Positions 16,905 to 22,443 of a DNA stretch of 24,527 bases are shown here, in pieces. The position numbers were made by a program, and so were the translations under genes. Each line of letters opens with the position of its first letter. Position 1 is the stretch's first letter. Under the pieces are notes generated by a model that made no database searches, was not told the origin of the DNA, and saw nothing but the letters and a program-made list of their open reading frames with translations. Origin of the DNA: a virus; IMG/VR virus record IMGVR_UViG_3300025889_000904, positions 1 through 24,527 of that record; one strand, given 5' to 3'.

Positions 16905-17317
16905 TCTACCAATCAACATCATTTGACATTGACTACATCGACCCTTGGTTTTTTGTGGGTTCGGATAAGAATAACTTTATTGAGGTATACCCTACCAATA
17001 GACGTAAGCAACTCATCAACTGGGAAGTGGACATTGAGGATAGGTCGTTTGGCATTTTACGAATTGCATCGGACATCCTTGAGGTTAGGTTATATCTTAC
17101 CATTGAACTGCTCACCAATGAGTGTAGCGAACTATTCAAGCAATACCTTATGGAGAAGTACGTTGTGGACATCAACGAATCATCCATTGATATACACCTC
17201 GAACCCCATCACTTTAGTAAGTTTAAACTCGTTAACCAAATGCGATGGAAAGAGGAAGGATTATTTATTACTGATGTTATTGTTGATTTTATGGATAAGC
17301 AAATAATAATACGATAA
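16901..17317 (+). CDS. Hypothetical protein between helicase and VRR-NUC nuclease
   Basis: This 138-residue protein starts 4 bases before the helicase stop. It reads as an alpha/beta protein with strongly alternating hydrophobic residues (FGILRIASDILEVRLYLTIELL) and acidic stretches. The end is a beta-type segment (VIVDFMDKQIIIR). A 127-residue open frame in another phase over the same DNA is a shadow. No motif or family is recognised. Its neighbours suggest DNA processing, but that is only context. Confidence 0.6.
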   Translation: MIYQSTSFDIDYIDPWFFVGSDKNNFIEVYPTNRRKQLINWEVDIEDRSFGILRIASDILEVRLYLTIELLTNECSELFKQYLMEKYVVDINESSIDIHLEPHHFSKFKLVNQMRWKEEGLFITDVIVDFMDKQIIIR

Positions 17318-17320
17318 TTT

Positions 17321-17593
17321 ATGAGCGAACAAAAAATACAGACAAAGATTAGGCAAAGACTTGAGTCGCACGGTTGGTTTGTGACGAAGTTAAAAGCAAC
17401 CTCGACTAACGGAATTCCGGACCTATTATGTATCAAGAGGGGGCGCATCGCCTTTCTCGAAGTCAAGACCGATGATGGAGTGGTGAGCGAACTACAAAAG
17501 TATATGATTGATAAGTTAAACGCCCACGGGTGCTACGCACGAGTGGTTCGTAGCGTTGAGGATGTAGATGTTCTTTGTGGGGTGAATTTGTAA
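17321..17593 (+). CDS. VRR-NUC domain nuclease
   Basis: This 90-residue protein forms a stand-alone VRR-NUC domain, a PD-(D/E)XK relative. The motifs are GIPDLLCIKRG at 31-41 with the catalytic Asp34, FLEVKT at 45-50 (Glu47, Lys49), and a downstream Gln/Tyr helix (ELQKYMIDKLNAHG). Such small VRR-NUC proteins cleave structured DNA such as Holliday junctions in some phages. It lies 25 bases before the primase-helicase gene. Family assignment is good; substrate is not shown. Confidence 0.85.
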   Translation: MSEQKIQTKIRQRLESHGWFVTKLKATSTNGIPDLLCIKRGRIAFLEVKTDDGVVSELQKYMIDKLNAHGCYARVVRSVEDVDVLCGVNL

Positions 17594-17618
17594 GTTTTCT
17601 TTACTATATTATTTTACT

Positions 17619-20096
17619 ATGGACTACTTAAACTTGAGCATAAATTGTATTGCGGTCAACGAACACAAAAGAGCCATCTTTCCTTGGAAGGAGTTCCAGA
17701 CAAGAATGATAACCAAGGAGGAGTTGGACAAGCAAATGAGCGACCCCAAGGCTCGTGGGGTGGCCGTGATATGTGGAGCGGTGAGCGGTGGCCTCGAGGT
17801 CATTGACATTGACACTAAATACGCTACCTATGACCTTTGGTCGGAGATAAAGGCCAAAATACCAAGCGAATTAATGGACAAGCTATACGTGGTTCGCACA
17901 CGTAGTGGTGGAGTGCATATTTACTATAAATGCGAAATAATTGAAGGCAACCAAAAATTAGCAAATCGTGAGTTATCTGAAATGGAGAAGAAAGCCTCTC
18001 CGCATCTTAAGACACTTACCATTGTGGAAACAAGAGGCGAAGGTGGTTATGTCGTTGCGCCTCCTACGCAAGGTTATCAAGTGGAACAAGGGGATGAGCC
18101 AAGGCGCATTGAAGTCGAAGATCGTGAGCGACTACTCGCAATTATGCGAACTTTTAATGAGGTACTTGAAGAAGTAGTCATCGAGGCGTCAGAAAGGCCA
18201 AGTCCTAAGGAATATGGTAAGTCGCCATTTGATGATTATAACAATAGGGGTGACATATTAGAGTTAATGAGTCGCAATGGTTGGTCGCTTGTAAAAAATG
18301 GAGGTGATCGGATATATTTCTTGCGACCTGGTGGCACATCCGAGCATAGTGGTTCGTGGAATAAGACACTTGGCTTATTCTCGGTCTTTAGCACCAACAC
18401 GCCTTTTATTGTTCAAAAGGGATATAAGTTATCTGCGGTCTTCGCCATCTTGGAGTGTGGTGGCGACTTTAGTATGGCTGCCAAGAAATTGGTCGAGATG
18501 GGTTATGGAGAAAGGAGAAGTAGCGTTGACTATGAGGTCTACCAAAAGCGAGAGGAGGGGTATAGTAACGATGAGATAGTCGACCACTTGGTGCGTAATA
18601 AGAATATGGGCATCAAAGACGCTCAAGTGGTGGTGGAACGATTGGAGGCAAGGGAGCCGGTGCTTACATTTTGGGATGTTGAGATAAAGGGAAGGAAGTG
18701 CGTAGCGGTTATCAATAGATATAAGTTGCAATCGTATCTGACCAAGGTAGGTGGGTTTAGGTTATATTTTTATGAGCCTAATGGGACTGATTATCGCCTC
18801 ATTCGTGAGGTCAATGGGTTTGTGAGGGAGAGTAGTACGGAGGAGATTAAAAAGTTCATCAAGGGGTATTTAGATAAGGAGGTCGATGACCTTGGACTTG
18901 AGCAATCCCCACAAAGTATTATGGAACTTGTTTATCGTGGTAGTTCGCAACTATTCAATGATGGCTTCTTTGAGTTTTTTGATAGAGCGGAGTTAGATTT
19001 TTTGCGTGACGATAGAAGCACGGCCTACTTCCCATTTAAAAATGGTGTGGTCGTGATTACAAGTGAAGGAGTTGGTTTGCGTTCGTATGGAGAGTTGGGT
19101 AAGGTCATCTGGGAGTCGCAAGTCATCGATCATTACATTGTGGTCGACCAAGAGCAGGAGGCCGAGCAAATAGAATACTTTAGGTTTTTGAAGCGTATAT
19201 GTGGCGATGATATGGAGCGAGTCTTATATGCTATGGGACTCATTGGCTACTTACTTCATAAGTACAAAGACCCCGCAAGGCCATTCTCGGTTATTTTGGC
19301 TGAAGAAACCGAGAACGAAGCCAAAGGAGGTGGAACTGGTAAGGGGATATTTGTCAAGGCACTTGGCTACTTGTGTCAAATGGTGAGAGTAGATGGTAAG
19401 AACTTTAAGATTGACAAAAACTTTGCGTTCCAAAGAGTCGACCTGGACACTAAGATACTTGCCATTGAGGATACGAGGAAGAACGTAGATTTTGAGGGTT
19501 TTTACTCTATAATAACTGAAGGGATAACGGTAGAGAAGAAGAACAAAGATGAGTTGTTTATCCCTTACAAGGATTCTCCTAAGGTGATGTTTACCACGAA
19601 TTACACTATCCCTAATATGGGAACACACGCCAAGAGGAGGCAAAAGGTATTGGAATTTGCCCCTTATTTTGGAGTGGATAGAACTCCCGAGGATGAGTTT
19701 GGCAAGAAGTTATTTGAGGATTGGGATGCTGATGAGTGGAATAGGTTTTATAACCTGATGTTTGAGTGCGTAAGGGACTACCTTGGTAGTGGGGTAACGG
19801 AGGTAAAGAGGAGCGACAAGTTGGCGAGAAAGCAGGTTCGTGTGCAATTTGGGGAGGAATTTTTGGACTATTTTGAGGCGGTAAGGCTTGTGGATGGATG
19901 GACCAGTTTGGAGCAATTATATGCCGATTTTTTGAAAATGGCTGGGTATGAAAAGAAGGATTATAGTGTAAAACGGTTTTCCCGAGCGGTTGAAGAATCC
20001 GCTACAATTTTGGGAATTGAGCTACAGATAACCAAGGATCGGAGTGCGAATAATAAAAAGGCTTATAAATTTATTTATAATGAAGAAATGTTTTAA
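17619..20096 (+). CDS. PrimPol-SF3 helicase replication protein
   Basis: This 825-residue protein combines an N-terminal primase-polymerase and a C-terminal helicase. PrimPol motifs: DID at 63-65 (catalytic Asp63, Asp65), SGGVH at 96-100 with His100, and ETRGEGGYVVAPP at 137-149. Residues 205-300 form a linker domain with a WNKTLGLFSVFSTNTPF segment. The helicase has Walker A KGGGTGKG at 569-576, Walker B ILAIED at 613-618, sensor VMFTTN at 656-661, and the AKRRQK arginine region at 671-676. This is the SF3/D5-like replicative layout of phages and plasmids: primer synthesis and unwinding in one protein. No separate family B DNA polymerase is seen, so the phage probably uses the host's replicase. 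Confidence 0.9.
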   Translation: MDYLNLSINCIAVNEHKRAIFPWKEFQTRMITKEELDKQMSDPKARGVAVICGAVSGGLEVIDIDTKYATYDLWSEIKAKIPSELMDKLYVVRTRSGGVHIYYKCEIIEGNQKLANRELSEMEKKASPHLKTLTIVETRGEGGYVVAPPTQGYQVEQGDEPRRIEVEDRERLLAIMRTFNEVLEEVVIEASERPSPKEYGKSPFDDYNNRGDILELMSRNGWSLVKNGGDRIYFLRPGGTSEHSGSWNKTLGLFSVFSTNTPFIVQKGYKLSAVFAILECGGDFSMAAKKLVEMGYGERRSSVDYEVYQKREEGYSNDEIVDHLVRNKNMGIKDAQVVVERLEAREPVLTFWDVEIKGRKCVAVINRYKLQSYLTKVGGFRLYFYEPNGTDYRLIREVNGFVRESSTEEIKKFIKGYLDKEVDDLGLEQSPQSIMELVYRGSSQLFNDGFFEFFDRAELDFLRDDRSTAYFPFKNGVVVITSEGVGLRSYGELGKVIWESQVIDHYIVVDQEQEAEQIEYFRFLKRICGDDMERVLYAMGLIGYLLHKYKDPARPFSVILAEETENEAKGGGTGKGIFVKALGYLCQMVRVDGKNFKIDKNFAFQRVDLDTKILAIEDTRKNVDFEGFYSIITEGITVEKKNKDELFIPYKDSPKVMFTTNYTIPNMGTHAKRRQKVLEFAPYFGVDRTPEDEFGKKLFEDWDADEWNRFYNLMFECVRDYLGSGVTEVKRSDKLARKQVRVQFGEEFLDYFEAVRLVDGWTSLEQLYADFLKMAGYEKKDYSVKRFSRAVEESATILGIELQITKDRSANNKKAYKFIYNEEMF

Positions 20097-20123
20097 AAGA
20101 AATATTGAGGATTTGGGCAAAAA

Positions 20124-20202
20124 TGTAGCGGATGTAGCGGATGTGTAGCGGATTTGTAGCGTATATCTCGTTGATAACCACCCTTGTAGTCAATGTAGCG
20201 GA
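20124..20202. repeat. TGTAGCGGA iteron-like repeats
   Basis: TGTAGCGGA starts at 20124, 20133 and 20144, with a one-mismatch copy (TGTAGCGTA) at 20155 and another exact copy at 20194. The first four lie 9-11 bases apart, about one DNA turn. The array begins 27 bases after the primase-helicase stop. Spacing and position fit replication-initiator binding sites; an alternative is that it is an operator. Confidence 0.65.
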
Positions 20203-20309
20203 TTTTTTAGAAATTTGGAAGACACTTGTTTTTTTTTAGAGCCTCATATGTAAATGTAATAGTATGAAAAAATCGACTACATCGAGTTATTGAATACATC
20301 TATAATATG

Positions 20310-20378
20310 TGTGGTTAATATAGATTTTATCTATGAAAGAAATGTTTATGAATAAATGTATATGGTGGTTGTGGATAA
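20310..20378. promoter_or_regulatory. Consensus and near-consensus DnaA boxes
   Basis: TGTGGATAA at 20370-20378 is the exact complement of the DnaA box TTATCCACA. A second site, TGTGGTTAA at 20310-20318, has one mismatch. Both lie upstream of a gene whose product resembles the DnaA box-binding domain (20557). A 9-base match can occur by chance, but here it coincides with the iteron-like repeats and the DnaA-like gene. Confidence 0.55.
20321..20328 (+). promoter_or_regulatory. Weak Bacteroidota-type promoter (TAGATTTT)
   Basis: TAGATTTT differs from the TAnnTTTG -7 consensus only at the final base. It lies about 230 bases upstream of the DnaA domain IV-like gene and overlaps the end of the upstream near-consensus DnaA box region. 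If used, the resulting leader would contain two terminator-like hairpins (20387-20417 and 20453-20481). Confidence 0.35.
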
Positions 20379-20386
20379 CTCAAGGG

Positions 20387-20417
20387 TTTTTGCTCCTAAA
20401 GTTGAAAAGGATTTTTT
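20387..20417 (+). repeat. Hairpin repeat copy 1 (terminator-like)
   Basis: TTTT(G)C and GAAAA flank the loop TCCTAAAGTT, followed by GGATTTTTT. The stem has a bulge. It is the most diverged member of a five-copy family that shares the loop core AAAGT and a following G/T-rich tract. It lies 8 bases after a DnaA box. Confidence 0.5.
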
Positions 20418-20452
20418 GGGTTTGGTTGATGGGGTTTTGTTGCGAGTTGGTG

Positions 20453-20481
20453 CTATCCTCACAAAGTTCGGATAGGTTTTT
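20453..20481 (+). repeat. Hairpin repeat copy 2 (terminator-like)
   Basis: CTATCC pairs perfectly with GGATAG around the 11-base loop TCACAAAGTTC and is followed by GTTTTT. The element extends to 20490 and matches copy 3 at 36 of 38 positions. A further hairpin, GGGG-TTATA-CCCC, follows at 20485-20497, so the leader of the DnaA-like gene is highly structured. Confidence 0.6.
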
Positions 20482-20556
20482 GTTGGGGTTATACCCCGTG
20501 GTTGACCTTAGGTGGGGAATTAATATGCGTATAAATAACACAATAAAATAAATAGT

Positions 20557-20958
20557 ATGATGGACATTATTGGAATAGCAAAAGCAGTGGAGGAGGTGAG
20601 TGGTTTGAGCCTGGAGGAAATTAAAAGGAAGGATAGGAGAAGGAAGGTCGTAATGGCCCGGCATAGCTTGATGTATGTTGCGAGAATGAATATGGATATC
20701 TCCCTTATGGCCATTGCGAGGTTTTTGGGGGTAGATCATACTACGGTTATAAATGGCATCAATAGGATGCAATGTATGATTGACACAAATGATGAACCCT
20801 ATGTGAGGTTTTTGTCCGATGTGAGGAAAAGAAGTTATGAGTTATGCGATAACCCTACAAAGGTTTTTGTCGTGGTTCCAGGACACAAAGACCCTAAGAA
20901 GATCATAGAGTTTTTGGTCAAGGAATATGGGTGCCAGTGCAGGATTGAGAAGTTTTAG
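20557..20958 (+). CDS. Stand-alone DnaA domain IV-like DNA-binding protein
   Basis: This 133-residue protein resembles the C-terminal DNA-binding domain of DnaA. RRRKVVMARHSLMYVAR at about 27-43 is followed by ISLMAIARFLGVDHTTVINGINRM, in which DHTTV is the signature of the helix-turn-helix that reads DnaA boxes. No AAA+ ATPase domain is present, so it cannot load helicase like DnaA, but it could bind DnaA boxes, recruit host DnaA or replication proteins, or block host DnaA. The last 50 residues (VFVVVPGHKDPKKIIEFLVKEYG) are an added alpha/beta tail. The start is one of two adjacent ATGs. It lies downstream of the PrimPol-helicase and an origin-like region. Confidence 0.8.
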   Translation: MMDIIGIAKAVEEVSGLSLEEIKRKDRRRKVVMARHSLMYVARMNMDISLMAIARFLGVDHTTVINGINRMQCMIDTNDEPYVRFLSDVRKRSYELCDNPTKVFVVVPGHKDPKKIIEFLVKEYGCQCRIEKF

Positions 20959-20972
20959 TTTTGGGTTTTTGG

Positions 20973-21001
20973 CTATCCTCACAAAGTTCGTATAGGTTTT
21001 T
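20973..21001 (+). repeat. Hairpin repeat copy 3
   Basis: CTATCC and GTATAG flank the loop TCACAAAGTTC; one stem position is mismatched compared with copy 2. It is followed by GTTTTTGTCGGGG. Copies 2 and 3 lie on either side of the DnaA-like gene and differ at 2 of 38 positions. Confidence 0.6.
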
Positions 21002-21021
21002 GTCGGGGTTTTTGGTGCTGG

Positions 21022-21050
21022 TTTGCTCCTAAAGTCGCAAAGGTTTTTTG
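21022..21050 (+). repeat. Hairpin repeat copy 4
   Basis: TTTGC pairs with GCAAA around the loop TCCTAAAGTC, followed by GG and six T. The stem differs completely from that of copies 2 and 3, but the loop core and T tract are kept. Confidence 0.6.
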
Positions 21051-21068
21051 TTGGGTTTTTGTCGCCGG

Positions 21069-21100
21069 TTTGCTCCTAAAGTCGCAAAGGTTTTTGGCGG
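21069..21100 (+). repeat. Hairpin repeat copy 5
   Basis: TTTGC pairs with GCAAA around TCCTAAAGTC, as in copy 4, 47 bases downstream of it. It is followed by GGTTTTTGGCGGG. Copies 4 and 5 form a tandem pair. Confidence 0.6.
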
Positions 21101-21247
21101 GTTTTTGGTGCATATATGCCAAAAAGCACCCAAAATTTGCTGAAATTTAGTTAAATCAATTTAAAGGCACTTTTTAGGCGTTTTACGGGCTTTTATTGTG
21201 TATTGCGTAGGTAGGTATCATTTTTGTATTTTAGGGGATAAAATTGG

Positions 21248-21690: not shown

Positions 21691-22443
21691 TTATTTTTGT
21701 CTAATTACAAAGCCGCTTATATCTTTTTTTGCGTCACCCTTAGCTTTAAGGCCTACAATGCAGTTAACCGGATCAAAGATCCTTAGGTCGGTTTCGTCTC
21801 CGTTAATTACTTTATATCCTAAATAACTCTCTGGTAGATCCTCAGCGAATACGGCCGCAATATTGCCGCCATCAGCAAGTACAGAAAGGGCCTGCAAAAA
21901 ATTAGTTTCTGATAAACTAAATGTTAATGAATACCTGGTACCTTTGTACTTTTTTATTGCGTTGATATTTTTAGTGTAGTCATAAAAAATTAGATCAGAA
22001 TAAAAATCATCTAAAAAATTAATTCCAGTGTACCGCTTTAATAAGTCTAAATGATCAATGTCAGAAGTACCGTTCAAACGTATGGCAATAGCTTGGCCTT
22101 TCTTTATTGTTTTATCATGTATTTTTAACAATTCATCAGCCAATTGGATATAAAATTGCTTTCTATTGTAGGCCCAAAATTTAGTCTTATTTATCCTTGC
22201 TTCTTGTACGCTGGTAAATTTACCGTGACCGGCAGTATTTAAACAACCTTTAATGCACCCGGCTGAGGCGAAAGGGCAAACGTTATGCGTCCCTATTGTG
22301 TTAGCTGGTGCCAAAAATAATACATGTGTTTCTAAGCTATTTTTGGCTATCTTAAGGTTAGTTTTACCGTCCGAGAGTAGTTTTTTTACTACTTTATAGC
22401 TGCTATCAATTTGCGTGTTTTGTTGTTGTGTAGTGGCTGACAT
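21691..22443 (-). CDS. GP88-family protein with Cys cluster
   Basis: This 250-residue protein starts 13 bases after the stop of the preceding minus-strand gene. It resembles the phage gene product 88 (GP88) family: LFLAPANTIGTHNVCPFASAGC is followed by KGCLNTAGHG, then an ARINKTKFW segment, LNGTSD, and a later YSLTFSLSE segment. Cysteines at 56, 63 and 67 (C-x6-C-x3-C) suggest a metal or Fe-S cluster reminiscent of radical-SAM proteins. The biochemical role of the family is not known to me. It is the largest gene of the operon and is preceded by a hairpin leader (AAAAAACTATTTTTT) identical to that of its upstream neighbour. Confidence 0.7.
   Translation of the reverse strand: MSATTQQQNTQIDSSYKVVKKLLSDGKTNLKIAKNSLETHVLFLAPANTIGTHNVCPFASAGCIKGCLNTAGHGKFTSVQEARINKTKFWAYNRKQFYIQLADELLKIHDKTIKKGQAIAIRLNGTSDIDHLDLLKRYTGINFLDDFYSDLIFYDYTKNINAIKKYKGTRYSLTFSLSETNFLQALSVLADGGNIAAVFAEDLPESYLGYKVINGDETDLRIFDPVNCIVGLKAKGDAKKDISGFVIRQK

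Follow-up and report, generated by a model that had tools for sequence, protein, structure and literature searches.

The open reading frame at 20557–20958 of the window (the whole 24,527-base stretch analysed here, a complete IMG/VR virus record) encodes a DnaA domain IV without the initiator ATPase, referred to below as DnaA-IV. Four observations underlie our reading of it: the fold of the protein, the conserved pairing of its gene with a primase-helicase gene, the origin-like anatomy of the DNA between the two genes, and the tracking of the short repeats (iterons) in that DNA with the primase-helicase and not with DnaA-IV. With middling confidence, we take DnaA-IV to be a DnaA-box-type regulator or accessory of the phage replicon, probably acting at its own promoter and perhaps at the conserved centre of the putative origin.

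The identification as DnaA domain IV, already proposed in the earlier note, was borne out by profile, sequence and structure comparisons. The Bac_DnaA_C profile (PF08299) matches residues 7–70 at 3e-16, above its gathering cut-off, and phmmer against PDB sequences retrieved DnaA chains (8btg, 2e-5; 3pvp, 1.6e-4). The AlphaFold model, built on 21 family sequences (pLDDT 90.4), superposes on the box-bound DNA-binding domains of Mycobacterium tuberculosis DnaA (3pvp; Z 16.2, rmsd 1.5 Å over 96 residues) and Escherichia coli DnaA (1j1v; Z 15.7, rmsd 1.6 Å over 93 residues), with the next unrelated fold at only Z 6.2; these fold searches bear on the helix-turn-helix (HTH) domain, not on the C-terminal extension. 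The same note had described the ATPase domain as missing, and indeed no AAA+ domain III is present in the 133 residues, where Bac_DnaA_C was the sole domain found by Pfam; against the NCBIfam profile for full-length DnaA the protein scored 50 bits, far under the cut-off of 344. No PHROGs family matched it. DnaA-IV therefore has in common with DnaA domain IV the fold, the minor-groove arginine and the DHTTV recognition motif, but differs from full DnaA in lacking the AAA+ ATPase and N-terminal domains and in carrying an extra C-terminal extension. This extension (window 20850–20955, residues ~98–133) is kept in most family members, with one proline and one cysteine prominent.

The window protein retains the equivalents of E. 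coli R399, D433, H434, T435 and T436. Across the family, the equivalents of R399 (the minor-groove arginine) and H434 are invariant (55/55 members), whereas two positions that read bases in E. coli vary, D433 being replaced by H in 9 of 55 members and T435 by A or S in 14 of 55, to give recognition helices such as DHAT, HHAS and HHST. This variation sets the family apart from DnaA domain IV; the two host proteins compared, from Niabella and Chitinophaga, both have RDHTT at these positions. Where the neighbouring primases remain 58–66% identical, family members share 24–32% sequence identity with the window protein; the invariance of R399 and H434 despite this divergence supports a DnaA-box-type regulator or accessory.

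Stand-alone DnaA C-terminal proteins are already widely annotated in phage records, and the window protein, a small Bac_DnaA_C protein without an ATPase in a phage genome, therefore belongs to a known kind. Other phage open reading frames also match Bac_DnaA_C in Pfam, and proteins annotated as 'Chromosomal replication initiator, DnaA C-terminal' in uncultured Caudovirales phages and in Nonlabens phage P12024L are likewise stand-alone, with matching predicted folds. We found no functional study of such a protein in the open literature, most subscription journals lying outside the scope of the search. As far as our searches go, the fixed pairing of DnaA-IV with a Prim-Pol/SF3 protein, the origin anatomy and the evidence on the iteron reader are new. 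They supply a genomic context for many phage proteins known just as 'DnaA C-terminal', point to a candidate origin and to which protein may read which part of it, and show the DNA-reading half of the bacterial initiator maintained on its own next to an initiator of viral type.

The primase-helicase encoded next door matches Prim-Pol (2e-13) and DUF5906 (2e-8) in Pfam; its profile found no match among PDB sequences. Its predicted structure (pLDDT 82) most closely resembles the SaPI5 primase-helicase (Z 19.9), with further matches to poxvirus D5/E5, pRN1 Prim-Pol (Z 16.0) and the NrS-1 CTR (Z 14.1), and has a helix-helix-hairpin of winged-helix type at residues 764–819, near its end. Primase, SF3 helicase and C-terminal winged helix are thus united in one protein with iterons directly 3′ of its gene, the arrangement of SaPI-, P4- and pRN1-kind replicons. 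Genes for a VRR_NUC protein, a helicase and a PD-(D/E)XK nuclease precede it. GC skew reaches 0.39 across the primase and origin region (window 17251–21000) and is about 0.03 beyond 21 kb.

Table 1. Coordinates of the replication-associated features in the window.
Feature	Position	Strand	Details
Primase-helicase, probable initiator	17619..20096	+	825 aa; AEP Prim-Pol, DUF5906/D5-like SF3 helicase, C-terminal winged helix ~762–819
Left iterons, TGTAGCGGAT three times and TGTAGCGTAT	20124..20164	+	Starts 20124, 20133, 20144, 20155; repeat search; homologous blocks in relatives
Central element GTTGATAACCA (GTTGATAAYCA)	20170..20180	+	Most relatives have a palindromic TGATWATCA core
Right tandem iterons TGTAGTCAA TGTAGCGGA, then T6 tract	20185..20208	+	From sequence; layout shared by relatives
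Inverted copy of right iteron and T-tract, AAAAAATCGACTACATCGA	20267..20285		Other arm 20190–20208; 58-base spacer
One-mismatch DnaA box TTAACCACA	20310..20318	-	No support beyond chance
Perfect DnaA box TTATCCACA	20370..20378	-	Precedes the DnaA-IV start by ~180 bases
Repeats rich in GGTTTTTG, strand-biased, in and around the DnaA-IV gene	20385..21107	+	Repeat search
DnaA-IV gene, free-standing DnaA domain IV	20557..20958	+	133 aa; HTH domain residues ~2–97, then family-specific C-terminal extension of ~36 residues

Scans for the primase yielded some 70 distinct relatives, of which 66 closest-class loci had at least 1 kb of sequence downstream of the primase. A DnaA-IV open reading frame lies within 650 bases after the primase in 65 of these 66, beside origin-like repeats, which upholds the link to phage replication drawn in the earlier note. 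In the single exception, L016, the DnaA-IV gene lies ~7.5 kb upstream, away from the origin-like element, and a protein similar to a GP88-family product (PF17338, 2e-34) encoded past the DnaA-IV gene of the window (21691–22443, minus strand) occurs there in the same place. The pairing is looser where primase identity is 42–51%: it is kept in a Niabella aurantiaca prophage (L185), and in L186–L188 (another Niabella, a Chitinophaga and a Sphingobacteriales genome) the primase is present and the host dnaA is the sole Bac_DnaA_C gene. The DnaA-IV partner therefore seems dispensable in some such replicons, given these three genomes and the distant gene of L016. The prophages suggest Chitinophagales-type (Bacteroidota) hosts for these phages. 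Stand-alone DnaA-IV genes in other, unrelated viral contigs also lie near replication genes, which encode a DnaB-like helicase (L160), a DUF3987 protein (L169), a DnaG-like primase (L172) and a DUF5906 protein (L178); an association of DnaA-IV with phage replication modules thus recurs. Listeria and Enterococcus 'phage' matches were left out as short unannotated records, one of them marked unverified.

Between the two genes, an element spanning 20124–20285 has the layout of a replication origin. Its iterons are 9 bp long, four to the left and two to the right of a centre that reads TTATCAACG on the minus strand, a DnaA-box-like sequence two changes from the box. Just past the primase stop, close relatives likewise have iterons (usually three or four), a TTGATWATCAA-like centre, two tandem iterons and a T-tract, and in several of them the right iterons and T-tract are repeated in inverted orientation ~60 bases further on. 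The iterons vary in sequence by group (TGTAGCGGAT, GTACGCGAT, GTACACGAT, TGTAGTCCAT, TACCACTT and others). The core of the centre, GATTATCA or TGATAATC, is kept in 19 of 23 lineages, and the central element is found also in the Niabella prophages L185 and L186. In L185 the element after the primase is a mirror image, with inverted iterons, the centre TTGATTATCAA and the DnaA-IV gene adjoining. Inverted arms of 19–24 bases around a ~60-base spacer, which might correspond to a pRN1-type stem-loop, occur in several phages; the inverted-repeat score is 16.5 in L021 and L027 (shuffled sequences, 10.5–11.5) and 11.5 in the window (shuffled maximum, 12). A stable origin hairpin in the window was rejected, as folding was not above that of shuffled sequences (z −0.2), and Rfam gave no match anywhere in the window. 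Judged by this anatomy and by the SaPI, SCCmec and pRN1 precedents, the element is the probable phage replication origin. The iterons of L017 and L028 (TACCACTT) share their core with the AAGTG iterons of the SCCmec Cch2 origin (PMC7581432), which may be coincidence.

Covariation points to the primase-helicase as the reader of the iterons. Across 40 phages, iteron similarity correlated with similarity of primase residues 776–825 (partial rank correlation 0.60, with the rest controlled; Mantel permutation p 0.001 for residues 771–825) but not with that of DnaA-IV (0.03; Mantel p 0.36). The tracking climbs along the primase toward its C terminus, with a second, smaller peak in the ATPase region (0.51, residues 576–625). 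Stricter de-duplication, down to 13 phages, left values of 0.44–0.57 for the primase and at most 0.12 for DnaA-IV, and the contrast was stable over four de-duplication levels and three word lengths. Within one close clade, AACATCAT iterons go with the primase wing RDKGSGGKKL and GTACGCGAT iterons with REKSAGGKKM. The genomes behind this covariation are related. Physical linkage might have given the primase end an advantage, and tracking by DnaA-IV might be masked if its gene is often replaced; linkage alone is argued against because DnaA-IV is also nearby yet does not track the iterons. We therefore think that the C-terminal winged helix of the primase-helicase probably reads the iterons, by analogy with SaPI, P4 and SCCmec replicons.

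In SaPI and SCCmec replicons, iterons lie immediately 3′ of the helicase gene and are bound by the C-terminal domain of its product, SaPI Rep or SCCmec Cch2 (PMC7581432). The window, as judged from its sequence, is alike in having a predicted self-loading helicase, a putative C-terminal DNA-binding domain and a probable iteron origin 3′ of the gene, but SaPI Rep and Cch2 as described there are without a DnaA-IV partner. The pRN1 protein ORF904 combines Prim-Pol, SF3 and winged-helix domains with an origin downstream of its gene, and a winged helix of the phage P4 alpha protein binds origin repeats (PMC4234260); pRN1 differs from the window in having a stem-loop without iterons, and P4 alpha in having a Toprim primase.

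The earlier note had reported a perfect and a one-mismatch DnaA box upstream of the DnaA-IV gene and had suggested that the protein may recruit host DnaA or replication proteins to the phage origin. Both boxes are present on the minus strand, but it is the iteron block that is origin-like, and boxes as the origin were rejected: they are not conserved in the intergenic DNA of relatives, most of which lack the box at 20370. Nor are boxes enriched in the window, with one exact TTATNCACA (2.0 expected) and 25 sites with at most one mismatch (40 expected). Immediately upstream of DnaA-IV genes the picture differs. Within 260 bases, exact TTATCCACA occurs three times in 35 lineages (8,572 bases), once each in L035, L046 and the window; 150 permuted 9-mers averaged 0.05, none of them reaching three, and two copies remain without the window, which was picked for its box. 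With one mismatch allowed there are nine sites against a mean of 2.3, a count reached by 3 of 150 permutations; most lineages have no canonical box there. The box is shared by L035 and L037, whose DnaA-IV proteins are near-identical, despite differences in the sequence immediately preceding it; in the sister clade of L059, TTATCAACA occupies the corresponding site. An attractive idea, that a change at T435 explains the shift from TTATCCACA in L035 to TTATCAACA in L059, was not adopted, since L046 (DHST) retains TTATCCACA. The boxes that do occur resemble sites close to the promoter of the DnaA-IV gene itself, which suggests that DnaA-IV binds there and perhaps at the origin centre; host DnaA could bind the same putative sites. 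Depletion of DnaA boxes from these phage genomes, which the one-mismatch count in the window had hinted at, was also rejected, TTATCCACA being commoner than permuted 9-mers (24 versus 8.6 over 691 kb), with many of the 24 copies shared by descent inside the primase gene.

Together, these data are consistent with a model in which the self-loading Prim-Pol/SF3 primase-helicase would initiate phage replication at the iteron origin just 3′ of its own gene, its C-terminal winged helix reading the iterons. DnaA-IV would bind DnaA-box-like sites (TTATCCACA or TTATCAACA) close to the promoter of its gene and thereby regulate its own expression. The parallel is dnaA, the product of which represses its own promoter containing a TTATCCACA box (PMC8203912). 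Possibly bound also at the DnaA-box-like origin centre, DnaA-IV might serve as an accessory factor or in copy control, tuning or coupling initiation. Because the origin repeats look like primase-helicase sites, DnaA-IV is likelier a helper or regulator than the starter. We regard it as very unlikely that DnaA-IV is itself the origin-binding initiator, reading the iterons and recruiting host DnaA or DnaB: its gene adjoins the iterons, which are 9-mers like DnaA boxes, and in other contigs DnaA-IV genes have DnaB-like or DnaG-like genes nearby, but the iterons do not track it, identical GTACGCGAT iterons stand alongside DHTT, DHAT, DHST and HHAS recognition helices, and those of L016 still lie beside the primase though the DnaA-IV gene is elsewhere. 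A two-reader origin, with the primase-helicase on the changing iterons and DnaA-IV on the constant TTGATWATCAA centre, is a tentative and rather doubtful proposal; if true, a viral SF3 replicon would have a cut-down DnaA as a second, dedicated factor binding its origin.

Two other roles were weighed against the regulator or accessory. DnaA-IV might compete with host DnaA, occupying host oriC boxes so as to stop host initiation and free replication resources for the phage. Rapid divergence suits a host-directed protein, and the window protein keeps the equivalents of all five residues named above, with RDHTT at the same positions in Niabella and Chitinophaga host DnaA; yet the base-reading positions drift within the family while the two host proteins keep theirs, making competition less likely as a family-wide role, and the gene is tied to a phage origin-like element in nearly all relatives. 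We consider this explanation unlikely. A transcription factor of GafA type, whose DnaA-like HTH would activate or repress phage operons without contributing directly to replication, also seems somewhat improbable. The DnaA-like N-terminal DNA-binding domain of RcGTA GafA is required for GTA gene activation, and Hyphomicrobiales have a DnaA-like gene, small and separate, ahead of gafA (PMC9638019), so that a small DnaA-like DNA-binding protein has been reused outside chromosome initiation, as the window protein may be; the boxes close upstream of DnaA-IV genes in L035, L046 and L059 would fit such a role. GafA, however, is a transcription factor with further domains, and what constantly lies beside DnaA-IV is no transcription module but an origin-like element with a primase-helicase gene.

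The DNA around the DnaA-IV gene is also rich in GGTTTTTG, with 12 plus-strand copies in the window, 11 of them within 20385–21107, and none on the minus strand. Near-identical relatives vary in the copy number of such arrays between the origin and the DnaA-IV gene, and terminators, priming sites or recombination repeats are candidate roles for them.
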